64,000 bases of DNA from Poseidonibacter lekithochrous. Its GTDB lineage: Bacteria; Campylobacterota; Campylobacteria; Campylobacterales; Arcobacteraceae. The translations under genes and the position numbers were made by a program. Shown here piece after piece: positions 34,926-47,188 of the stretch. Positions within the stretch are counted from its first letter, which is position 1. Every line of letters begins with the position of its first letter. The notes beneath the pieces are model-generated. The model was not told the origin of the DNA and did no database searches. It saw only the letters and a list, made by a program, of their open reading frames with translations. The stretch is taken from assembly GCF_013283835.1 (NCBI RefSeq), contig NZ_CP054052.1:3410001-3474000 (forward strand). The letters are read 5' to 3'.

Positions 34926-35534
34926 TTACTCTTTTTCTATTTTCTTATGAAGTTCGTAGATTTCATCTGCAAAATCTAAACAATCTTTTGTAAAAAATTC
35001 TCTTGTCTGATTTGGACGGAAATTATGTAATAATTTGTGCATTGCTTTTTCTAAATTCTCATAATTTGATATTTTATATTCTCTTAGAACAGTGAATTTG
35101 AAAGGAACTCCAGTTGTATAAAGAGACTTAATTCTATCTTCAATTTTTAAAGTTGTAATCCCTATTTTTACTAACTCTTTTGCATCTTTTGTGAAAGTAT
35201 TCGTACTTAGAATATAAACTATTCCTATTTCACTTTCAAAGTCTTCTTCTATGGATTCTTTCTCTAATCTTTCTTCATCTTCTTCAACTAATCCTACAAG
35301 AACTGGCTTGGAAGATTTATCTCTAAAAAATATACTATCATTATCTACGCTCAAAGAAGAAACTTCTGCTTTTATCTGAGAAATAGCTAGTTTTTTATCT
35401 CCATTTTTTTGAAGCATTTTTGATTCTAATTTTTCAGGATATTTAGCTATTAATTTTGTTGTTAGTTGTTTGATATTTAGACTATTATTTTCAAATGTTA
35501 AAATATCTATTACCATTTCTTTTAGTGTTTTCAT
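34926..35534 (-). CDS. HARE-HTH plus GIY-YIG (T5orf172) domain protein
   Basis: A 202-aa two-domain protein. Residues 1-80 look like a HARE-HTH winged helix (TLKEMVIDILTF, then KMLQKNGDKKLAISQIKAEVSSL), a DNA-binding module often joined to restriction nucleases. Residues 103-190 form a GIY-YIG domain of the T5orf172 group: GIVYIL, LVKIGITT, an Arg in IEDRIKSLYTTGVP, a Glu in LEKAMH, and REFF. This suggests a DNA-binding nuclease. Its ATG shares a base with the stop of the Abi_2 gene (TAATG), indicating coupled translation. Confidence 0.75.
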   Translation of the reverse strand: MKTLKEMVIDILTFENNSLNIKQLTTKLIAKYPEKLESKMLQKNGDKKLAISQIKAEVSSLSVDNDSIFFRDKSSKPVLVGLVEEDEERLEKESIEEDFESEIGIVYILSTNTFTKDAKELVKIGITTLKIEDRIKSLYTTGVPFKFTVLREYKISNYENLEKAMHKLLHNFRPNQTREFFTKDCLDFADEIYELHKKIEKE

Positions 35535-36160
35535 TAATCTTTATTCTCCATCATTTTTTTATCATCAATTAATTCCTTCGCAAAAACACTAATTTCTTCA
35601 TCAAAGTATGACAATAATTCAAAAATATCACTTTGAATATTTAAATATTCTTGTTTTTTTATTATTCGTTCATAATGAAATATTCTATTTCTAAATTTTC
35701 TTATATGATTTAGTTTTTTATCTAAAATATTACGATTTATTAATTTTAGTTGTCTTGGAGGAATATTTGGGAAAATATACTTAATATCTTTTATTCTCAT
35801 CAAATTTGCATATGATTTTCTAAAAAGAGTAGTCCAAAAGCCCAAAGGCAGTTCTGCAACTATTTTATCATAAGTCAAAAGCTCTTTTCGTCGTAATATT
35901 TTCTTTTTAGCTTCATCTATTTTTTGTTTTGTATCTTTATGCAAGATATCACTGTCTAGCCAATCTTTAGATATTTTATATTTAAAATAATTGTCTATAG
36001 AGTTTCTTAAACTTATTTCAAAAATAGAAAGTAGAATATAGTACTTTTCACTTATATAAATATTTTGTTTATACTCTTTAAAATCACTATAGTTTTGTAG
36101 CCTTTTATCCGTTATGAACTTTTGCTTAATATTTTTTTGCACTTGACTTTTCCTTTCCAT
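35534..36160 (-). CDS. Abi_2/AbiD-AbiF-type HEPN protein (abortive infection)
   Basis: An alpha-helical, Lys/Arg-rich protein with the two hallmarks of the Abi_2 family: an early FEISLRNSIDNYF helix, and a C-terminal RNRIFHYERI that contains the HEPN ribonuclease motif Rx4H. Counted from the upstream ATG at 36184, this motif spans residues 165-170. Relatives (AbiD, AbiF) stop phage growth by killing or arresting the cell. The ATG at 36184 is buried in a strong hairpin, so ATG at 36160 (208 aa) is preferred; either is possible. Being AT-rich and beside restriction-type genes fits a transferred defence gene. Confidence 0.75.
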   Translation of the reverse strand: MERKSQVQKNIKQKFITDKRLQNYSDFKEYKQNIYISEKYYILLSIFEISLRNSIDNYFKYKISKDWLDSDILHKDTKQKIDEAKKKILRRKELLTYDKIVAELPLGFWTTLFRKSYANLMRIKDIKYIFPNIPPRQLKLINRNILDKKLNHIRKFRNRIFHYERIIKKQEYLNIQSDIFELLSYFDEEISVFAKELIDDKKMMENKD

Positions 36161-36183
36161 TTTTATACAATACAAATAAGACA

Positions 36184-36227
36184 TCCAGTAAGCCTTTAGC
36201 CTTTTGAGCTAAAGCTTGGATTTTTTT
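36184..36227 (+). terminator. Hairpin with U-run between Abi_2 and the methylase-like gene
   Basis: On the plus strand, TCCA-AAGC-TTTAGC pairs with GCTAAA-GCTTGGA (small bulges, 7-base loop), followed by seven T. It would be a good intrinsic terminator on the plus strand, yet both neighbours are on the minus strand. On the minus strand the same hairpin lies just before the Abi_2 start without a U-run and could attenuate read-through. Confidence 0.6.
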
Positions 36228-36248
36228 ATGTCTAGACACTTTAAATTT

Positions 36249-38003
36249 CTAATCCAAATAAGAATTATTAATTAAAGTAATTTCTTCTTCAATCTTTTTT
36301 ATTTGATTATATTTTTCAATCTCCAAATTAAAATTTTCTACAATTTTACACTTTCGTTTTTTATCTAAAACTGGAACTATAAATTCTTTTAAGTCATTAG
36401 TAGATATTTGTGGCATAGCACTGCCTTGTTTTAATAACTTATGCAATAATTCTTGCCCATCATTTGACTTTAAATACATATATAAAACAATTGCATCTTC
36501 TTTCAGATTCATATTATTCTTTAATCTAATTCTTTGAATAGCCTGAGAAGCTAAAATGTTATCAATATTTTCTCCTACAATTGCAATCTTTCCTAAAATA
36601 CCTTTTGCACTTAGCAAAATATCAAAAGGTTCTAATTTGTAAGACTTAAATTGCTTATTAGAAGTATTAATATTTTTTTCTTTAAGTGCTTTAGTTGTAT
36701 ATCCTGATAAAGAAAAGTCTGAAGGAGAAATTTCATATACTTTTTCATAGTTTTCTTCCTCTTTTACCGTTTGACATTTTTTTACATCTGCAATTTCATT
36801 AATTTTAAGTAAGTCATATGAAGATATTTTATCTTTAATTTCTTTTGCCTCTTGAGATAGAACATATCTATCAATACTAAGATTGTAATTATTTCGTTTA
36901 ATCTCATCATTAGATATAGTACTAATATCTTCGGTATCTTTACCATTAGTATAAAGTTCTAAAATCTCATTAATATCTTTTAAAATTGTTTGTCTTCCAT
37001 CTTTTGTAATAAACTTCTCATTTCTTAAATCAAAGAATAATACATTTGAGTTCTCTTTATTTTTATCAATAATAAACAATATCATTTCTGCAGAATTTCC
37101 AGTATTCATACTCGAAGGCAGTTGTATTGATGCTTTCAAATAATTTTCATCTATTAAAAATTTTCTAAACTTTTCTTCAATTCCTGACCTAAAAGAAAAC
37201 CCTACAGGCATTAATACTATAGCTTCATTTTTTGTTTGAGATAGAATATGTTCAAAGTGTGCTACATCTAATCGCTTTCCAGAATGAATTTTAAATCTAT
37301 CAAAATAAAGATTTAGAGGTATATCTGAGATAACGCTAAAAGGAGGAAATGCAATTACTGTATCAAATTGCTTTAGCTTTTTTTTATCCCAAAAACCTGG
37401 TAAATATAAAGAATTAGTTATATTTAATTGAATATTTTTTTCTTCATGTAATTCCATAAATAATTTAACTATATTAATTTTCTTATCTTCATATTCACAA
37501 TAAACATTTTTATTTGAGTAGTTTCCTACTCCTAAACCATGATTAAAAGGAACATAAATTTCATTACTACTTTTACCACTAAGCTTTACACTAAGATCAA
37601 TTATTTGGTCTGTAACAATAGAATTATTATCTGAAATAAAAGGATAAAAACTATTATATATTGAAGGTATAGTTTCTATACTTTTAGTAATATCTAAAAT
37701 CTTTAAAAATGATAAAAAATCAAAACTTATATAAGAAAAAAACTCTTCTATAATTTTTACTACATCAATTTTATATTTATCAAAAAAGTACTTTTTTACT
37801 TCTTCATTATTAATCCAATTTAAAAAATTAAAAGTTGGATTTGAAGAAAAAGGATTTATATTCGGACGTATATATTCTGAAATCACTTTTTCTAAAAATA
37901 CATCATCAAATAGTTTTAAAGTAAATATAGTAGTTAAGCATTCAAATTCTGAATTAGTTTTTTCTATAATCTTTAAACTGTCTAACAACTCAATATAATT
38001 CAT
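36249..38003 (-). CDS. Degenerate N6-adenine methylase fused to an HsdS-like target-recognition domain
   Basis: A 584-aa protein laid out like HsdM joined to a TRD. Residues 1-145 are helical; about 146-390 follow the methylase fold; about 395-584 look like an HsdS half (ending in GSAMPQISTNDLKEFIVPV plus a coiled helix). The catalytic motifs are broken. Motif I reads IYVPFNHGLGVG with Val151 where Asp is expected. Motif IV reads AFPPF, with Phe219 where the catalytic Asn of NPPF should be. The true HsdM nearby keeps both. It therefore probably recognises DNA without methylating it. AAAGG precedes the ATG; hsdR ends 152 bp upstream. Confidence 0.75.
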   Translation of the reverse strand: MNYIELLDSLKIIEKTNSEFECLTTIFTLKLFDDVFLEKVISEYIRPNINPFSSNPTFNFLNWINNEEVKKYFFDKYKIDVVKIIEEFFSYISFDFLSFLKILDITKSIETIPSIYNSFYPFISDNNSIVTDQIIDLSVKLSGKSSNEIYVPFNHGLGVGNYSNKNVYCEYEDKKINIVKLFMELHEEKNIQLNITNSLYLPGFWDKKKLKQFDTVIAFPPFSVISDIPLNLYFDRFKIHSGKRLDVAHFEHILSQTKNEAIVLMPVGFSFRSGIEEKFRKFLIDENYLKASIQLPSSMNTGNSAEMILFIIDKNKENSNVLFFDLRNEKFITKDGRQTILKDINEILELYTNGKDTEDISTISNDEIKRNNYNLSIDRYVLSQEAKEIKDKISSYDLLKINEIADVKKCQTVKEEENYEKVYEISPSDFSLSGYTTKALKEKNINTSNKQFKSYKLEPFDILLSAKGILGKIAIVGENIDNILASQAIQRIRLKNNMNLKEDAIVLYMYLKSNDGQELLHKLLKQGSAMPQISTNDLKEFIVPVLDKKRKCKIVENFNLEIEKYNQIKKIEEEITLINNSYLD

Positions 38004-38154
38004 TTATCAACCTTTTGTACTGTATAAATGAATTATAAACTTTTATTTCTTAGTAATAGCTGTACTACTTTATATAGAATGTAAATTTGCTTCTAATATT
38101 TTTATTATCTCTTCATATAAATATAGTGAAAATATATATTTTATAGTGAAATAT

Positions 38155-41013
38155 CTACTTCATCCCATCAAAAAAGATTTCTATGAAATCATTTATTTTA
38201 AGTTTCACTCTCTCTTCTACTTCTTTTTTCTCTTTTAGTTTTAGTTTTGTCATAACTAATCCTAGAATTTCAGCACCTCTTGGCATATCTTTTTTGAATA
38301 TATACTTGCTAATCATTTTTTGGAATAGCTCTTTATTTAGGTTTTCTTCTTCACATAAAATATTCATTGCTTGTGTTTGCTCTTGCTCTAAGAAAGAATC
38401 ATAAGCCTCTTTGACATTTGAATCTTCTTCAAGTTCAAAAAGGTTTTTATCTATAAACTTCTCGATTAGAACTCTTTTACTTCTAAGTTTTGAATCTCCA
38501 ACAATCATATCAATAACAGCTTTTTTCTGCTTTTCGTAATCTTTCCCTTCTTTTTTGCCTTTTCTCATATTTGCCAATAAGGCTAAAATATAAGCTACAT
38601 TTATTTCATCCGTATGAAGAAGTTCTAACTCAAAATCTATCTCATCAAAAATAGAGGGTTTTGTCTTATCTTTATTTCTTTTTATTTTATCTCTCAAATC
38701 AGTATATTTCGTACTAAAGTCAGTAAACTCTTCTTCACTCATTCCTAAATCATCCCATGAAAAATCAGAAAATGAAGCCATAGAATTCTTAAGCCTCATA
38801 ATCTCTCTAAAAGCACTAATAAAAGTATATTCTTCATTTTCATCTGCTAATGCATCTACATCTTGAACATTAGGAGTTATTTCATATAAGCTATCAACAG
38901 CCTTTGCAAATATTTCAGTATATTCTGCATATGACTTCATTAATACATCTTCTTTTGTTATAACTTCATTTGCTTCTTCATCGTTGAATAAACCAATCGC
39001 TTCATCTGTTTGGTCTTTTAGGTTTCTAAAACACACTACATTTCCTTGAGATTTTACCTCATCTAAAGTACGGTTAGTTCTAGAATAAGCTTGAATAAGT
39101 CCATGAAATCTTAAGTTTTTATCCACATAAATAGTATTTAAGTACCTACTATCAAACCCAGTTAAAAACATATTTACAACTATTAATATATCTACTTCTC
39201 GTTTTTTTACTTTTGTTGCTATATCATTGTAATATCTATAATAACTTTGGGTATCACCCAAAGAGTGATTAGTACCAAAAGTTTCATTGAAATCGTTAAT
39301 ATATAATTCTAATTTTTCTTTATTTCTATAGTTTACTTTTGATTCATTTATTTCTAGTTTTTCTTCATCTAGTATTCCAAAAGATTCTTTTGATTCTTCA
39401 TTTTGAGCATAGGAAAAAATAGTGGCAATATTTAGATTATGTTTCTGTTCTTCTTTTTTCTTTTTAAACAAATCATAATAAGCAATAGCACAATCAACAC
39501 TACTAGTACATAAAATAGCAGTAAATCTTCTCTGATGTGTTTTCTTTAAATGAACTCCTAGGATATAGTCACTAATCTTTTCTAATCGTCTAGGTGCTTC
39601 CATCAAAGCTTTTTCATCTATTTTATTTGATTCAATATCTATTTTGTTTTTTAGATCAGCCACATACTCAACTGAAAATTTCAATACATTTTCATCATTG
39701 ATTGCGTCTTTAATCACATAGGTATGTAATCTCTCTCCAAATAAGTCTTTTGTAGTTCTTCTACCTAAGTGATTTTTAGAAGAGTTATCTTCAAAAATTG
39801 GTGTTCCTGTAAATCCAAACATCTGTTTCTTGTGGAAAAATTCTGAAATTTTATTGTGAGTATCTCCAAACTGACTTCTATGACATTCATCAAAAATAAA
39901 TACTATTTTTTCATCTTTTAGATGTTCTATTTGTTTTAAATACTTATTAGTAGTTATTGCATTATTTAGTTTTTGAATAGTAGTTACTATTAGTTTAGAG
40001 TCATCTGTATTTGAGCAAAGTTGTTTTATTAGCTTAGAAGTATTATCTGTACTATCGACACTTCCTTCTTTGAAGTTATTAAACTCCAATGCTGTTTGGT
40101 AATCTAAGTCTTTTCTATCTACAACGAAAAGTATTTTTTTTACATTTGGATTGTCTTTTAAAATCTGTGATGTTTTGAAAGAGGTTAGAGTTTTACCACT
40201 ACCAGTTGTATGCCAGATATATCCACCATCTACTGAGATATTAACTTGATTTACTATATTTTCAACTGCGTAGTATTGATATGGTCTTAAAACCATCAGT
40301 TTATTTGATACTTCGCTTACTACTATGTATTTACATATCATTTTTGATAAGAAACAAGGTTCTAAGAATATAGAAGTAAATTCTCCTAGGTCATTGATAT
40401 GTTTGTTTTTTTCTGTCGTCCATGAAAAAGTCTGTTTAAAAGTATTGTCTTCACTATTATCTGCAAAATTAGTAAAGTACCTAGTATTTACACTATTGCT
40501 AATAACAAATAATTGTACAAAACCAAAAAGCCCACGACTTGCCCAAAAACTATCTTTTTGGTATCTATCTACTTGATTAAAGGCATCTTTTAAAGCAACT
40601 CCACTTCTTTTAAGCTCGATTTGAACCAATGGCAGACCATTTACTAAAAGAGTCACATCATATCTATTGACTGCTCTTCCTTGCATAGTGATTTGATTTG
40701 ATACTTGGTATTCATTTTGGCACCATTTATCCATATTTAGGAAGTCTATATATTTATCTGTACCATCATCTTTTTTTAGATTGTATCTATCTCTTAAAAT
40801 TTTAGCTCTTTTTACTACAGAACTAGCACTTAGGTGATTTAGTATTTTTCTAAATTCTGCATTTGAAAAAGTAGTATCATTATGAATTTCAAGCTGTTTT
40901 TTCAAGTTTAGAAGCATATCTTCTTCATTTGATAGTTTTACATTTTCGTATCCTAAACCTATAAGTTTTGTAATCAACTCCGCTTCTAAAACTGCTTCAC
41001 TTTTTTTACTCAT
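38155..41013 (-). CDS. hsdR: Type I restriction enzyme subunit R
   Basis: The 952-aa motor-nuclease subunit of a type I restriction system. The N-terminal nuclease shows D119 and the E133-K135 pair (QIELKRSG). The translocase has Walker A TTGSGKT, DECH in FIFDECHRSQFG, FGFTGTPI, and motif VI in QAYSRTNRTLDE. A helical C-terminal domain binds the methylase. AAAGGG precedes the ATG. It is separated from hsdS by fic and by an oppositely oriented small gene. No truncation is visible, so it should be active. Confidence 0.96.
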   Translation of the reverse strand: MSKKSEAVLEAELITKLIGLGYENVKLSNEEDMLLNLKKQLEIHNDTTFSNAEFRKILNHLSASSVVKRAKILRDRYNLKKDDGTDKYIDFLNMDKWCQNEYQVSNQITMQGRAVNRYDVTLLVNGLPLVQIELKRSGVALKDAFNQVDRYQKDSFWASRGLFGFVQLFVISNSVNTRYFTNFADNSEDNTFKQTFSWTTEKNKHINDLGEFTSIFLEPCFLSKMICKYIVVSEVSNKLMVLRPYQYYAVENIVNQVNISVDGGYIWHTTGSGKTLTSFKTSQILKDNPNVKKILFVVDRKDLDYQTALEFNNFKEGSVDSTDNTSKLIKQLCSNTDDSKLIVTTIQKLNNAITTNKYLKQIEHLKDEKIVFIFDECHRSQFGDTHNKISEFFHKKQMFGFTGTPIFEDNSSKNHLGRRTTKDLFGERLHTYVIKDAINDENVLKFSVEYVADLKNKIDIESNKIDEKALMEAPRRLEKISDYILGVHLKKTHQRRFTAILCTSSVDCAIAYYDLFKKKKEEQKHNLNIATIFSYAQNEESKESFGILDEEKLEINESKVNYRNKEKLELYINDFNETFGTNHSLGDTQSYYRYYNDIATKVKKREVDILIVVNMFLTGFDSRYLNTIYVDKNLRFHGLIQAYSRTNRTLDEVKSQGNVVCFRNLKDQTDEAIGLFNDEEANEVITKEDVLMKSYAEYTEIFAKAVDSLYEITPNVQDVDALADENEEYTFISAFREIMRLKNSMASFSDFSWDDLGMSEEEFTDFSTKYTDLRDKIKRNKDKTKPSIFDEIDFELELLHTDEINVAYILALLANMRKGKKEGKDYEKQKKAVIDMIVGDSKLRSKRVLIEKFIDKNLFELEEDSNVKEAYDSFLEQEQTQAMNILCEEENLNKELFQKMISKYIFKKDMPRGAEILGLVMTKLKLKEKKEVEERVKLKINDFIEIFFDGMK

Positions 41014-41039
41014 AAAAACCCTTTATTTAATAAATTCAC

Positions 41040-41079
41040 TTACGGATTACCGTATATATTTACGGGATTACGTAAAATA
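41040..41079. promoter_or_regulatory. Tandem 20-bp operator-like repeats between hsdR and the Fic-antitoxin gene
   Basis: Two copies exactly 20 bp apart: TTACGGATTACCGTA at 41040 and TTACGGGATTACGTAA at 41060. Each is itself an inverted repeat (TACGG/CCGTA and TTACG/CGTAA). The second copy covers the expected -35 of the plus-strand promoter, whose -10 is at 41083-41088. Two helical turns of spacing suggest paired binding of a dimeric repressor. Confidence 0.6.
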
Positions 41080-41082
41080 TGA

Positions 41083-41088
41083 TATAAT
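41083..41088 (+). promoter_or_regulatory. -10 element of the Fic-antitoxin promoter
   Basis: A perfect TATAAT 33 bp before the ATG of the 51-aa gene and directly behind the tandem operator repeats. Confidence 0.6.
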
Positions 41089-41121
41089 TACATATAACAA
41101 ATAATCTAGGATCACTTAACT

Positions 41122-41277
41122 ATGAAAAAAACTATTGCAAACACAAACAAACTTTTTGCTTCAGCAGCTAACAAAAGAAAAATGATTGTTAATTCTGTTC
41201 ATAGTTCTGCAAAAGTTGAAGGTTCTAAAATCACTAAAAAAGAACTTAACGAACACTATAAACTTATTCAATCATAA
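41122..41277 (+). CDS. 51-aa Fic-inhibiting antitoxin-like protein
   Basis: A short gene too small for usual ORF cut-offs: 51 codons, ATG at 41122 with AGGA ten bases before it. The protein holds VHSSAKVEGSKITKKEL, in which S29-A-K-V-E33-G34 fits the Fic inhibitory motif [S/T]xxxE[G/N]. The Glu of that motif reaches into the Fic active site to block ATP placement (as in VbhA). The adjacent Fic protein has no such motif of its own. Unusually, it lies on the opposite strand and converges on fic with a 14-bp overlap. Function is inferred from motif and position. Confidence 0.72.
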   Translation: MKKTIANTNKLFASAANKRKMIVNSVHSSAKVEGSKITKKELNEHYKLIQS

Positions 41278-42061
41278 GCTCCTCTTTAATTTTAGATTTT
41301 AATAACTCATTCATTGGTTTATAGTTACATTCATAACCTTCATGGACTCTTTGAATATAATTATCACCTCTTTTAAGCTTTAACCCAATCATTGGAAAAC
41401 CATTCTTTGCTAAAATAATATCACAGATAAGTCTACTTAATCTTCCATTCCCTTCTCTAAAAGGATGAATGAATAAAAAATCACTAATAAGCTTGGATAA
41501 ATCACTAGAAATACTATCTATATCTTCACCATATTCTTTAATACTAATTTCTTTTAAAAAGTTATCAAATTCTGGTAAACCTCGAAGAAAATCAAGTCTC
41601 CACTCCCAAGCTTCCGAACCACTTCCTTTACTCATATTTACAGTTCTTAACTCTCCAGCAAAAGGATAAATAGAGCTAAATATCATCTTATGCCATTGTT
41701 TTATAGTTTCAAATCCAAACGCTTTTGAGATATCAAGGTTTTCTACTAAATAAGTATATATTTCTAAGAGTTTTAAATCCTCTTGTATAACAATATAGTC
41801 ATTGTCTAAAGATTTAAGATAGTTTATACATACTCCATCTTTTGAGCTAATTTTTTGAATATCATTTGATTTCCATTCTATCCAAGGATTTTCAAAAGTT
41901 TCAATACCATCAAGAGATTCTTTTTGAGAATTATTTTTTGAAAGTATATGTTGTGGTGGCTTAGTAGAAGAAAAATATTTATTATCTGTTTTATACCAAT
42001 AGGTATATTTTCCATCTAATAAGACTTTAAAATCATATAATAAATATTTAGTTTTTGTCAT
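41264..42061 (-). CDS. Fic-domain AMPylase-type toxin/enzyme within the hsd locus
   Basis: A 265-aa Fic protein. The N-terminal part (1-90) is family-specific. The Fic fold follows, with FETIKQWHKMIF, the YPFAGELRTVNMSKG flap region, and a complete active-site loop HPFREGNGRLSR at residues 199-210 (catalytic His199, acidic Glu203, Arg207 and Arg210). It should transfer AMP or a similar group to a protein target. It begins 11 bp after hsdS with AAAAGG before the ATG, so it is cotranscribed with hsdM-hsdS. C. jejuni type I loci are also known to carry extra genes between hsd genes. Confidence 0.9.
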   Translation of the reverse strand: MTKTKYLLYDFKVLLDGKYTYWYKTDNKYFSSTKPPQHILSKNNSQKESLDGIETFENPWIEWKSNDIQKISSKDGVCINYLKSLDNDYIVIQEDLKLLEIYTYLVENLDISKAFGFETIKQWHKMIFSSIYPFAGELRTVNMSKGSGSEAWEWRLDFLRGLPEFDNFLKEISIKEYGEDIDSISSDLSKLISDFLFIHPFREGNGRLSRLICDIILAKNGFPMIGLKLKRGDNYIQRVHEGYECNYKPMNELLKSKIKEELMIE

Positions 42062-42072
42062 ACTATTTCCTT

Positions 42073-43257
42073 TTATACAAACATCTGTTGTAATAGACCT
42101 TTTTTGAACTCTTGGGCTTTTTGTTTTTGTTTTTTTGTGGCTTCTATTTTTTTATCTAGTGAAGATAAGAAATTTGCTATTTTTTGTTGTTCTTTTAATG
42201 AGGGTAAATCTATTTTCAATCTGTAAAAATCTCCATGATTTAAATCAGGAATAGTAGAAATTCCTGCATATCTCAAAATCATATTTTGAGTATTTCTCAT
42301 TCTTAAAAAATATACTAAAAAATCTTTATCAAAATTCTTAAAATAATTTATTCTAAAGAAATTATTATGAAATGCACCATTCACATTTGTTACAACTTGT
42401 CCCGTATTTCCAGTTCTAGTCATTAATACATCATCTTCATTACAAATTACAGAAGCAGAAGGTTCTTTAATAAAGTATTTTTTAGAACTCCCTTTTCTTA
42501 AAAACTCGTTTGTTATATAAAAATAGCTATCTTTAACTTTTTCTGTATATCTTTCAGAAATAGCAATTTGTAAACCTTGATTTATTTTTGTTAAATCACC
42601 TAACTTTTTTTCTTCCCAAGCAGGGAAATCTGAACTATCATCGGCTTTAAATCTTATCTCTTGTAAAAAAAGCTTTTGCATCATGGCTTTTTTGTATTTT
42701 TCTTGTAAGGCTATTTTTTCTTCTAGTTTTTCTATTTTTTTATCCACAGCAGATAAAAAAGAAGCAATTTTTTCTTGCTCTTGTTTTGATGGAAATTTTA
42801 TAGGTATTGAATTACAACTATTTTTATTCATGTATAATAGCGTTGTTTTTGTAGCAACTTTTACCATGTATTTTTTTTGAGTAAGTAAAGAGTAAAATAA
42901 AAATTCTACATTTATATTTCTATTGGGTAGAAAAGCATGAAGTTGTTGATTAATAATTAATTCATTTTTGGTAATAGCTAATAATCCCAATTCACCAACA
43001 CAGGACATAATAATAGAATTTGTAGGAACAATTTTTGAACCTATACTTTTTGATTCTTCTATGCTAATATTTAAATTTATTTTAGAAATATAAATATACT
43101 TACCTATAATATCAGGTGTTGTAATCCATGGAATTGTACCACTAAATAATTTAGGTTTATTTCTACCAGGAACTATACAATCAGTAATATTACCAATTTT
43201 ATTTTCTTCCCACTCTTCAGAAAACTCAGAAAATCGTATCGCTGGTACTCTTTCCAT
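42073..43257 (-). CDS. hsdS: Type I restriction enzyme specificity subunit S
   Basis: The 394-aa DNA-recognition subunit with the two-TRD layout: TRD1 (about 10-140), central helix (about 150-185, LSAVDKKIEKLEEKIALQEKYKKAM), TRD2 (about 205-345) and a C-terminal helix (FLSSLDKKIEATKKQKQKAQ) similar to the central one. It binds a split target sequence and guides HsdM and HsdR. The ATG shares a base with the hsdM stop. TRDs are variable, so the target cannot be read. Confidence 0.95.
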   Translation of the reverse strand: MERVPAIRFSEFSEEWEENKIGNITDCIVPGRNKPKLFSGTIPWITTPDIIGKYIYISKINLNISIEESKSIGSKIVPTNSIIMSCVGELGLLAITKNELIINQQLHAFLPNRNINVEFLFYSLLTQKKYMVKVATKTTLLYMNKNSCNSIPIKFPSKQEQEKIASFLSAVDKKIEKLEEKIALQEKYKKAMMQKLFLQEIRFKADDSSDFPAWEEKKLGDLTKINQGLQIAISERYTEKVKDSYFYITNEFLRKGSSKKYFIKEPSASVICNEDDVLMTRTGNTGQVVTNVNGAFHNNFFRINYFKNFDKDFLVYFLRMRNTQNMILRYAGISTIPDLNHGDFYRLKIDLPSLKEQQKIANFLSSLDKKIEATKKQKQKAQEFKKGLLQQMFV

Positions 43258-44843
43258 TAAAAAGGTGCCTTTATATTTAGCTCAGTACAAAAAGCCTCTA
43301 TTTCTTTATCTACATCCACCATCTCTTTATCAATAGCTTTTAACTCATCTGCTACCTCATCTATATTTATAGGCTCTTCTTCTTCAAAAGTATCTACATA
43401 TCTTGGGATATTTAGATTGTAGTCGTTTTCTTTTACTTCATCTAAAGTAGCTTTATATGAGTATTTATCTTCTGTATTTCTGTTTTTATATGTTTGGGCT
43501 ATTTTTTCTATATCTTGATTTCTTAAATTATTTTGATTTTTGCCTTTTTCATAGTTATCTTCACCACTTGCATCGATAAATAAAATATCATTTGGGTTTT
43601 CTCTACACTTTTTAAAGATAAGTATACAAGTAGGAATACTTGTACCAAAGAAGATATTTGCAGGTAGTCCAATCACTGCATCAAGATAGTTTTTTTGCTC
43701 TATTAGATACTTTCTTATATGTCCTTCTGCTGCACCTCTAAAAAGAACTCCATGAGGAAGTACTACTGTCATAGTTCCATTTTCTGCTAGGTGATAAATC
43801 ATATGTTGAACAAAAGCAAAATCTGCTTTTGTTTTAGGTGCTAGTTTTCCATATTGTGAAAATCTATCATTATTCTCGTGTATTGGTGAAGGATTCCAGT
43901 GAGCGGAAAACGGTGGATTTGCCACGATTGCCTCAAACTGATCATCCATGTGTTGCGGTCGCTCCAATGTATCTTCATTTTTGATATCAAAGTCATTGTA
44001 GTGAACTCCGTGAAGTATCATATTCATTCGAGCAAGGTTATATGTAGTTCTTGTAAGCTCTTGTCCATAAAACTTAGGATGTTTATCTTTTGGTAGCTCT
44101 TTAGCAACTCTTAAAAGAAGTGAACCCGAACCACAAGTAGGGTCATATACTGTTGAGATTTCTTTTCTTTTTGTTGTTACTAGTTTGGCAAGTAATGAAG
44201 ATACCATCTGAGGAGTATAGAACTCCCCTGCACTTTTACCTGCTCCACTTGCAAACTTTGAGATTAGATACTCATAAGCATCTCCTAATAAATCCCCGTG
44301 AGTGTCTTGTAGTCTAAAGTCTATTTCATCTAAGTGAGCTAGGACTTTTGAGATTAGTTCATTTTTTGCGTTTTCGCTTCGTCCTAGTTTTGAAGAGCTC
44401 AAATCAAGCTCTTCAAATAGTCCTTCATAATCATCTTGTGAGTCTGTTCCCATAGTAGAGATTTCTATATTTTTCAAAATAGTTGATAAATCATCTAAGA
44501 TGAAATTTGATTCACCTTCTACTTGGTTATTACCTTTTTTAGCAATATTTGAGAAAAGCTCATTTGGTTCTAAAAAGTACCCTAACTCTTCTACTGTTCC
44601 ATCTTTTAGATACTGTAGATTCTCTTCATAATCTTCATCAGATATATCCATATCTCTGAATTCATAACCTTCTTCATCTAAGTATTTGTTGTTAATAAAA
44701 ATTTCTATTTTTTCAGATAAGTATTTGTAAAAGATAAAACCTAAGATATAGTCCCTAAAGTCATCAGCTGTCATCTTACCTCTTAAGGTATTTGCTATAT
44801 CCCATAGTTTTTGTTGTAGTATTTTTTTCTGTTCTTCGCTCAT
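43257..44843 (-). CDS. hsdM: Type I restriction enzyme methylase subunit M
   Basis: The 528-aa N6-adenine methyltransferase subunit. It has the HsdM N-terminal helical domain (LWDIANTLRGKMTADDFRDY), motif I VYDPTCGSGSLLLRV, and motif IV IVANPPFSAHW, all intact. GEFYTPQMVSSL also marks the family. It is the first hsd gene. An 8-bp inverted repeat lies 26 bp upstream, with an XRE regulator gene immediately before it on the same strand. Confidence 0.97.
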   Translation of the reverse strand: MSEEQKKILQQKLWDIANTLRGKMTADDFRDYILGFIFYKYLSEKIEIFINNKYLDEEGYEFRDMDISDEDYEENLQYLKDGTVEELGYFLEPNELFSNIAKKGNNQVEGESNFILDDLSTILKNIEISTMGTDSQDDYEGLFEELDLSSSKLGRSENAKNELISKVLAHLDEIDFRLQDTHGDLLGDAYEYLISKFASGAGKSAGEFYTPQMVSSLLAKLVTTKRKEISTVYDPTCGSGSLLLRVAKELPKDKHPKFYGQELTRTTYNLARMNMILHGVHYNDFDIKNEDTLERPQHMDDQFEAIVANPPFSAHWNPSPIHENNDRFSQYGKLAPKTKADFAFVQHMIYHLAENGTMTVVLPHGVLFRGAAEGHIRKYLIEQKNYLDAVIGLPANIFFGTSIPTCILIFKKCRENPNDILFIDASGEDNYEKGKNQNNLRNQDIEKIAQTYKNRNTEDKYSYKATLDEVKENDYNLNIPRYVDTFEEEEPINIDEVADELKAIDKEMVDVDKEIEAFCTELNIKAPF

Positions 44844-44926: not shown

Positions 44927-45166
44927 TTATTTAAAAAACTCATTCATTTCTACATCTAAGATATATGCTATTTTTCCTAAATGTTCTAGGTTGAAATGAC
45001 AGCCTTTATTATATATTTCTGCATTGGAGATGACACTTACACTTTTGTGTCCTATTGCGTGAGATAGTATTAGTTGGCTCATGCCTTTTTCTTTTCGTAT
45101 TCTTTTCACATTTTCACCAATTTTTTTATGAAATGTTTCAGAATCGAAGTTTTCAATTTGTTTCAC
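44927..45166 (-). CDS. XRE-family helix-turn-helix regulator (module copy 1)
   Basis: A 79-aa protein that is almost entirely one XRE-type HTH domain: IGENVKRIRKEKGMSQLILSHAIGHKSVSVI, then a helix with FNLEHLGKIAYILDVEMNEFF. The start is GTG at 45166 with AAGG 11 bases before it. It is divergent from the 81-aa gene at 45306 and lies 84 bp before hsdM on the same strand, so it could control both. It is clearly related to the 81-aa XRE protein of copy 2 (IRKEK, IGHKSVS, NLE, KI and LD shared). Confidence 0.85.
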   Translation of the reverse strand: MKQIENFDSETFHKKIGENVKRIRKEKGMSQLILSHAIGHKSVSVISNAEIYNKGCHFNLEHLGKIAYILDVEMNEFFK

Positions 45167-45209
45167 TATTTAATTTCGCCTTGCTATTCTAAGTTAAAAT
45201 TAAATCTTA

Positions 45210-45248
45210 TAACGATAAAATTATTTTAACAACTCGTTATTGTGAGTT
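45210..45248. promoter_or_regulatory. Operator-like repeats of module copy 1
   Basis: The divergent interval holds TAACGA (45210) and its inverse TCGTTA (45234), 24 bp apart, overlapping a second inverted repeat AACTC/GAGTT (45231-45248). The position between the divergent starts suits binding sites of the XRE protein. The seven bases TCGTTAT recur in the interval of copy 2. Confidence 0.45.
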
Positions 45249-45718: not shown

Positions 45719-45964
45719 TTAAAGTAAATCTTTTATATTGATATCTAGAACTTTTGAGATTTTATATAGCTGTTCTAAATTATAGTGCTTGCCTTCTAGG
45801 CCTGCTTCAATTTTTCCAATAGTGCTAACTGATTTGTGTCCGATACTCAAAGCCAAGTCTGTTTGCGTTATTTTTTTCTCTTTTCTAATCTTTTTTATGT
45901 TGTAAGAAATAGTTTTATAAAACTCCTCTATTTCATTTTCATCAATTTCAATATGTAATAACAT
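45719..45964 (-). CDS. XRE-family helix-turn-helix regulator (module copy 2)
   Basis: An 81-aa HTH protein. After an acidic N-terminal helix it has NIKKIRKEKKITQTDLALS, IGHKSVSTIGKIEAG and the C-terminal YNLEQLYKISKVLDINIKDLL. This is a complete XRE fold, and the glycine-glutamate recognition region is better preserved than in copy 1. The ATG at 45964 has AGGA seven bases before it (an in-frame TTG lies one codon upstream). It is divergent from the 76-aa gene at 46090. Confidence 0.86.
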   Translation of the reverse strand: MLLHIEIDENEIEEFYKTISYNIKKIRKEKKITQTDLALSIGHKSVSTIGKIEAGLEGKHYNLEQLYKISKVLDINIKDLL

Positions 45965-46054
45965 CAAAGTTCCTGTACCAAAAGTTTTTCGTAAGTTTAT
46001 TAGAGATAGAATCGTTATGTTATTCCCTATTGGGATTAATTTTATTCATTTTTG

Positions 46055-46342: not shown

Positions 46343-47188
46343 TTACTTCTCTACTAAATTATATAAAGCTTGAATCTCTTCAGGCCAGATTTCTTCATCG
46401 ATAGTTTCTAAAACCATTGGAATATCATCCATTCTATCATCATTCATAATGAATTTGAAAGCATCCCAACCAATTTTACCAACTCCAAGTGAGTCATGTC
46501 TATCTACTCTTGAACCAAGTTCTGGTTTTGAGTCATTTAAGTGCATACCCATTAAGTATTGTCGTCCAACTACTTCATCAAACTCTTTCCACGTTTTATC
46601 GTATGCTTCTCTTGTTCTGATGTCATATCCAGCAGTGAACATGTGACATGTATCAATACATACACCTATTCTGCTTTTGTCTTCAACTTTATCAATAATA
46701 TGTGCTAAATGCTCAAATTTATAACCTAAGTTTGAACCTTGCCCTGCTGTGTTTTCAATTACTAATTTTACATCTTTTGTAGCATCAATTGCTTGATTTA
46801 AAGATAGAGCAATTCTATCAAGACATTCATCTTCAGTAATCTTTCTTAGGTGGCTTCCTGGGTGAAAGTTTAATCTATCTAATTTTAGGATTTCACATCT
46901 TTCAATTTCATGTAAAAAACCGTCTAAAGATTTTTCTCTTTTCTCTTCTTCAGGGTGTCCTAAATTGATAAGATATGAGTCATGAGGTAATATATGTTTT
47001 GCTTGTATTCCAGTCTCTTCTAACTCTTTAAACCATCTATCAATTACTTTAGTTTCTAAGTCTTTAACTCTCCATTGTCTTTGATTTTTAACAAAAAGAG
47101 CAAAAGCTTTTGCGCCTATATTTCTAGCATTAATTGGGGCATTAAAAACACCACCACTTGCACTAACGTGTGCTCCAACGTATTTCAT
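46343..47188 (-). CDS. nfo: Endonuclease IV (AP endonuclease)
   Basis: A 281-aa zinc-dependent AP endonuclease for base-excision repair. It begins [19 protein letters not shown] and has the zinc-ligand motifs [31 protein letters not shown] and [20 protein letters not shown]. All expected His, Glu and Asp ligands are present. Length is normal. AGGAAC precedes the ATG. It marks the return from the accessory island to core genes. Confidence 0.96.

Follow-up and report, generated by a model that had tools for sequence, protein, structure and literature searches.

On the minus strand of a 64,000-nt stretch of Poseidonibacter lekithochrous DNA (contig NZ_CP054052.1, positions 3,410,001 to 3,474,000; hereafter the window), a complete type I restriction-modification (RM) locus encoding HsdM, HsdS, Fic and HsdR (38155–44843) directly precedes three further open reading frames (ORFs) of 584, 216 and 202 amino acids. 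We propose that these three genes are cargo behind the RM locus, made up of two independent modules and one passenger. The first gene product, here called pMS, would be an autorepressor of restriction and toxin operons built from the parts of a restriction enzyme; the second gene, abi_2, would form a separate RNA-controlled toxin module; and the third encodes a GIY-YIG protein. We put this explanation as a whole at a probability of about 0.6. The original prediction had instead joined the three genes into one defence unit and made no mention of the RM locus with its inserted Fic gene. The ORFs lie on one strand as it described, with 151 bp between HsdR and pMS, 64 bp between pMS and abi_2, and a single base shared by abi_2 and the GIY-YIG ORF in TAATG. 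The features concerned, all on the minus strand, are:

36249–38003: pMS, predicted dead type I M domain with one target recognition domain (TRD) and a C-terminal helix, as in half an S subunit (Pfam N6_Mtase, PADLOC Specificity_I)
38052–38066: candidate pMS operator AGTACAGCTATTACT (AGT-N9-ACT; consensus of relatives' promoters)
38032–38037: candidate −10 box TATAAT of the pMS unit (read from sequence)
38016–38021: possible remnant half-site AGTACA, downstream of the −10 box (read from sequence)
36183–36221: conserved hairpin immediately upstream of abi_2, a candidate RNA antitoxin (covariation, covariance model)
35534–36184: Abi_2/AbiF-type HEPN protein, predicted RNase toxin (RNRIFH, PADLOC PD-T4-5, relatives match Pfam Abi_2)
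34926–35534: T5orf172-type GIY-YIG protein, translationally coupled to abi_2 via TAATG (profile match)

pMS and the candidate operators at its promoter

The match of pMS to Pfam N6_Mtase is confined to profile positions 84–310 (E 7.8e-29), and the Specificity_I models of PADLOC match residues ~400–570, corresponding to one TRD only. At motif I, which reads D-P-x-C-G-S-G in HsdM, the window protein has YVPFNHGLG, and at motif IV (N/D-P-P-Y/F) it has FPPF, with FPPF, FPPM or IPPF among its relatives; all of these have lost both motifs, nearly all carry the replacements YxPF and [FI]PP, and the adjoining HsdM retains DPTCGSG and NPPF. Since motif I and NPPF are both replaced, the original prediction of a sequence reader without catalysis was right about this protein, and by its motifs pMS is a catalytically dead fusion of an M domain to half an S subunit that has lost the S-adenosylmethionine (SAM)-binding and catalytic motifs. 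In the AlphaFold2 model, the C-terminal 36 residues (548–583) form one long helix, like half an S subunit. In the PDB, the model best matches CamA and type I M subunits, among them complexes with Ocr or ArdA (7eew, 7bto, 7bst); IIG/CamA enzymes and the M1 and M2 subunits of PacII match its fold as well. The NCBIfam model MAD5 gives 58 bits against a cut-off of 400, and neither full MAD5/MAD2 scores nor the gene set of MADS was found.

Five full-length pMS proteins are present in a sample of 299 genomes of the order (5 of 104 genomes of the family carry pMS), and further ones come from genome contigs and plasmids, including those of Cyanobacteria, Aromatoleum and Aliivibrio. In the tree, 21 pMS sequences form one clade (support 100/97) separate from true HsdM, with members from Campylobacterota, Cyanobacteria, Betaproteobacteria and Gammaproteobacteria. 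An M-S protein from a Lactococcus plasmid (L076; comparison loci carry L numbers throughout) groups with HsdM outside the clade and was removed from the counts. On two Alphaproteobacterial plasmids, pMS is split into two ORFs (L077 7285–9179, L078 7372–9074).

The promoters of pMS genes carry a gapped palindrome, AGT-N9-ACT, usually in two copies, one before the TTGACA box and the other after the −10 box. The AGT and ACT are constant and the nine inner bases differ among loci. When all 3-base gapped palindromes were searched, AGT-N9-ACT was the best (11 of 12 loci, 23 copies); since AT-rich shuffles sometimes reach at least 11 for some palindrome pattern (3 of 200), the claim is carried not by this count but by the fixed geometry and the held-out loci. 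As to geometry, a site ends 1–2 nt before the TTGAC[AT] (−35) box in 12 of 15 loci (0 of 1000 dinucleotide shuffles). Three loci fetched after the pattern had been defined (L117, L118 and L120) contain five sites where 0.17 are expected (0 of 5000 shuffles). These operators occur both with and without a DUF4258 gene, a frequent neighbor described below, so that pMS is the one gene product that all the loci share. Two distant pMS genes have other palindromes: in L073 the promoter lies between ACTATAAAATAGT and ACTATTCGATAGT, and in L072 GTACGCCGTAC and GTACGGCGTAC occur at the promoter, as would be expected were an altered TRD to recognize an altered site.

The window site, AGTACAGCTATTACT, has two mismatches to both operators of the sister locus L117 (AGTACAGATCTTACT). 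Just three such 15-mers exist in the 64 kb, and the chance of one falling in the pMS promoter is ~0.007. The window promoter lacks a good −35 box, the place of which is occupied by the operator, and L117 has a full second operator where the window has the half-site AGTACA. To judge by the promoter sequences, a conserved candidate operator stands at the gene's own promoter in most of these loci, and one weaker site stands in the window.

The TRD behaves differently from the enzyme genes that accompany it. About 15 of the 23 pMS loci touch type I hsd genes, which belong to different subtypes, and pMS is often the first gene. Between L033 and L043 the TRDs of pMS are 77% identical whereas HsdM and HsdS are only 20% and 17% identical; many other pairs are alike, and the TRD is conserved to the same degree as the remainder of pMS. 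A match between the specificity of pMS and that of its own HsdS was considered and rejected, cognate pairs being no closer than non-cognate ones. Since the TRD stays alike while the linked HsdM and HsdS diverge, pMS does not appear to follow RM specificity, and we infer that a constant TRD amid a changing enzyme is what would be expected of a fixed-target regulator rather than of a specificity partner. Between hsdS and hsdR, type I operons headed by pMS also hold other genes, HamA with a helicase (Hachiman-like; L034 1817–4863) and RhuM (L033 2541–3536).

Taken together, we suggest that pMS goes back to a fusion of type I methylase and specificity parts in which SAM binding and catalysis were lost. 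Because it retains one TRD and an S-type helix, it should dimerize as a half-S does and read a bipartite palindrome. The dimer would recognize the AGT-N9-ACT operators where transcription of the pMS operon starts and, once bound, repress that operon. Elsewhere the controlled genes would usually be a small DUF4258 gene and/or hsdM, hsdS and hsdR, and in the window they would be pMS, abi_2 and the GIY-YIG gene. Repression might perhaps be released when DNA-mimic anti-restriction proteins capture pMS.

Abi_2 and the hairpin RNA upstream of its gene

The window Abi_2 carries the HEPN signature RNRIFH (R-x4-H), as had been predicted, and R162, R165, N166, F169 and H170 are invariant across 25 relatives, so that RNase activity may be predicted. 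The PD-T4-5 model of PADLOC matches residues 45–187 (E 3e-14). Pfam Abi_2 does not match the window protein at E ≤ 10 and is matched by 11 of the 25 aligned relatives; a search of the PDB with the Abi_2 profile gave no match.

The window and five relatives share a ~39-nt hairpin directly upstream of abi_2, composed of an outer stem, an inner stem, the loop CTCAAAG and a CTTAC bulge. Covariation with pairing kept is seen in 8 of its 11 pairs (0 of 500 shuffles). A covariance model built from these six sequences, R1, finds the hairpin at the same position, directly upstream of abi_2, in 12 of 12 held-out close relatives (E 1e-9 to 1e-16), and the held-out hairpins covary as well. Because the annotated ATG of abi_2 (36184) overlaps the end of the hairpin, translation probably begins at the Met codon around 36160.

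The gene and its hairpin occur in diverse surroundings: between BrxC and a PglX-like gene in L063, beside or between HsdM and HsdS in L065, L106, L107 and L111, next to a type ISP gene in L066, and next to DUF2779 genes in L062, L100, L101, L104 and L105. AbiF systems work with upstream hairpin RNAs (PMC12373285; Zilberzwige-Tal 2025, cited there), and abi_2 is therefore likely to be a self-contained unit of an RNA antitoxin and a HEPN toxin. By this analogy, abi_2 with its hairpin is probably a mobile AbiF-type module that enters BREX, type I, type ISP and other loci; the hairpin RNA encoded just upstream would silence Abi_2, the putative HEPN RNase toxin, and the pair would travel independently into different defence loci.

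Two hairpin copies flank the abi_2 region in L104 (6532–6589, 8852–8909) and L106 (6040–6108, 6762–6819). More distant abi_2 genes (L067–L070, L081–L084, L086) have, by eye, a second hairpin type 30–150 nt upstream, with a stem around TCATCAC ... GGAGAGGA or GAGAGG closed by CCTAG/CTAGG-like arms; this type has no match in Rfam.

Gene neighborhoods and alternative explanations

The original prediction assumed that pMS, Abi_2 and a HARE-HTH/GIY-YIG protein belong together. Among the 104 genomes of the family, pMS is found in 5 and Abi_2 in 15, and at the thresholds used both occur only in the window genome (0 of the 4 other pMS genomes, 0 of the 14 other Abi_2 genomes). The GIY-YIG part of the third protein was borne out (T5orf172/MUG113, E 1e-12 to 1e-14), and HARE-HTH gave no profile match even at E ≤ 10, a result with which a diverged copy remains compatible. 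A close relative of this protein exists in one of the 298 other genomes of the order, beside glutamyl-tRNA reductase, and its relatives sit in contexts unrelated to pMS or abi_2; by its distribution it is a rare companion of the other two genes. The conserved three-gene unit is rejected, since the families do not co-occur and the GIY-YIG relative is so rare; moreover, Abi_2 is elsewhere part of a separate RNA-plus-toxin unit. The prediction itself had named both outcomes, rarity of the trio and a separate Abi_2 unit, as refuting it.

A looser pattern does recur in the gene neighborhoods, in which pMS stands beside an RNase-toxin-like gene (DUF4258, HicA or Abi_2). A small DUF4258-like gene precedes pMS in 9 loci, mostly 1–10 nt upstream, and this pairing is found in both main branches of the pMS tree. 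Pfam places DUF4258 among the toxin families of the RelE/ParE superfamily (PMC11980606). A RelE-like fold was sought and not obtained (AlphaFold2 model poor, with a predicted local distance difference test score (pLDDT) of 69; no PDB match), so the predicted toxin nature is taken solely from the Pfam placement and the cited paper. In L031, upstream of position 1841, a remnant of a DUF4258 gene (reading TTNYILARMSQKG) lies between the operators and pMS. In L041, a HicA gene overlaps the end of pMS; L117 and L118 have no hsd genes near pMS, L041 likewise being an orphan; and in L117 another Abi_2 sits 0.8 kb downstream of the sister pMS. These arrangements are compatible with a possible antitoxin-like or guard role of pMS. 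A search of viral contigs confirmed no relative of pMS or Abi_2.

Four other explanations were weighed against an autorepressor and a separate toxin module. The least improbable of them, if still unlikely, is that the dead M-S fusion serves as both switch and decoy, such that DNA mimics of phages or plasmids, of the Ocr or ArdA type that occupies the DNA groove of the methylase, pull pMS off AGT-N9-ACT and thereby turn on restriction and a linked toxin. The predicted fold, which matches Ocr- and ArdA-bound methylases, the position of the operator at the promoter and the defence genes in the operon would agree with this, and Ocr-triggered defence is known for PARIS (PMC12255303); yet a plain autorepressor fits pMS equally well. 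We rank below it, as doubtful, a structural role in which pMS is a second inactive M or an alternative half-S of the type I enzyme, as in the M1M2S arrangement of PacII, the palindromes being bound by another factor. That pMS is usually encoded beside hsdM and hsdS, together with the modeled similarity to PacII M1 and M2, speaks for such a partner, but pMS swaps among unrelated HsdM/HsdS families with its own TRD staying alike, and the orphans in L117, L118 and L041 have no hsd partner nearby.

Ranked next, and also improbable, is the three-gene guard, in which a DNA-reading pMS restrains the Abi_2 RNase, the GIY-YIG protein acts along with it, and disturbance of the pMS or RM complex frees the RNase. 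The compact gene order, the coupled translation and the RNase-toxin-like neighbors of pMS (DUF4258, the overlapping HicA, Abi_2) fit it; the lack of co-occurrence, the unrelated contexts of GIY-YIG relatives and the fact that close abi_2 relatives all have a hairpin RNA of their own instead do not. That pMS is simply a decayed methylase gene is very unlikely: the catalytic motifs are gone and some members are broken (L077, L078), but members from several phyla retain YxPF, [FI]PP and an uninterrupted reading frame, and the TRD is no less conserved than the other parts. The autorepressor explanation has points against it too. The window operator is statistically weak (~6% chance from composition alone), the L040 site matches only with one mismatch, and common ancestry of the pMS loci accounts for part of the likeness of their promoters. 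The structure model of pMS is only moderately confident (pLDDT 75, predicted template modeling score 0.65), and the abi_2 hairpin has no match in Rfam, RF03085 included. AGT-N9-ACT is also absent upstream of the window hsdM, and hence any control by pMS is probably limited here to the unit that contains it.

The genes that precede the trio, also on the minus strand, are:

38155–41013: HsdR of the neighboring type I RM locus (profile match)
41264–42061: Fic/Doc gene between hsdS and hsdR (profile match; PADLOC PDC-S04 match)
42073–43257: HsdS (profile match)
43257–44843: HsdM with intact catalytic motifs DPTCGSG and NPPF (profile match, sequence)

Two small XRE-type helix-turn-helix (HTH) genes lie upstream of hsdM (~44970–45210 and 45719–45967, both minus strand) and may control the hsd operon separately. 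At the edge of the defence cargo, the window (46343–47188) and L117 (5872–6717) have the same AP endonuclease (nfo-like) gene, which points to a shared insertion hot spot.

Relation to known systems

Little is known of how transcription of type I RM loci is controlled, and we found no paper on such a dead-methylase regulator in the open-access library searched. If our explanation is true, components of the enzyme itself have given rise to a widespread repressor, in which a TRD has been put to new use as a transcription factor. Its recognition site can be read from promoters, which would offer a ready test of how type I RM loci are switched. The abi_2 hairpin, for its part, would extend the RNA-antitoxin AbiF units to a group not covered by Rfam, within RM and BREX loci.

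A recent example of such control, RptR (RMS-proximal repressor, 2025; PMC12255303), is likewise the first gene of type I RM/toxin islands and has palindromic promoter operators, usually at least two, with predicted autorepression. However, RptR is a small four-helix protein that binds TAGCTA, whereas pMS is a methylase-specificity derivative of ~580 amino acids with a gapped palindrome, and no homology between the two is evident. The C (controller) proteins of type II RM systems share with pMS an RM-encoded control of transcription via promoter operators, which for pMS is predicted; they are small HTH proteins, and no HTH was detected in pMS. With type I HsdM, HsdS and M-S fusions, pMS shares the fold, the TRD, the C-terminal helix, the neighborhood and the NCBI name 'type I RM subunit M/S', but it has lost the SAM-binding and catalytic motifs and its TRD is conserved independently of the linked HsdS.

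The AbiF/Abi_2 RNA-antitoxin systems (PMC12373285) share with the present module a HEPN protein of the Abi_2 group and a hairpin RNA of ~35–40 nt directly upstream; abi_2 here differs in its RNA consensus (loop CTCAAAG, CTTAC bulge), usually present in one copy and unmatched by RF03085, and in its place inside RM and BREX loci. The original prediction had drawn a parallel to PrrC beside type I enzymes. The association of HEPN genes with restriction loci holds and had already been published, Abi2, AbiF and AbiD having been described as embedded in RM operons with PrrC-like logic proposed (Anantharaman 2013, PMC3710099); its extension to three genes is not supported. Like PrrC-EcoPrrI and the HEPN genes in those RM operons, the window Abi_2 is encoded beside a type I RM locus, here one with a Fic gene; unlike PrrC and RloC it is a HEPN protein of 216 amino acids alone, with no ABC NTPase, and unlike PrrC-EcoPrrI it has its own RNA element and does not lie between hsd genes. 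PD-T4-5, the PADLOC profile that matches Abi_2, occurs here together with an RNA element and an RM context.

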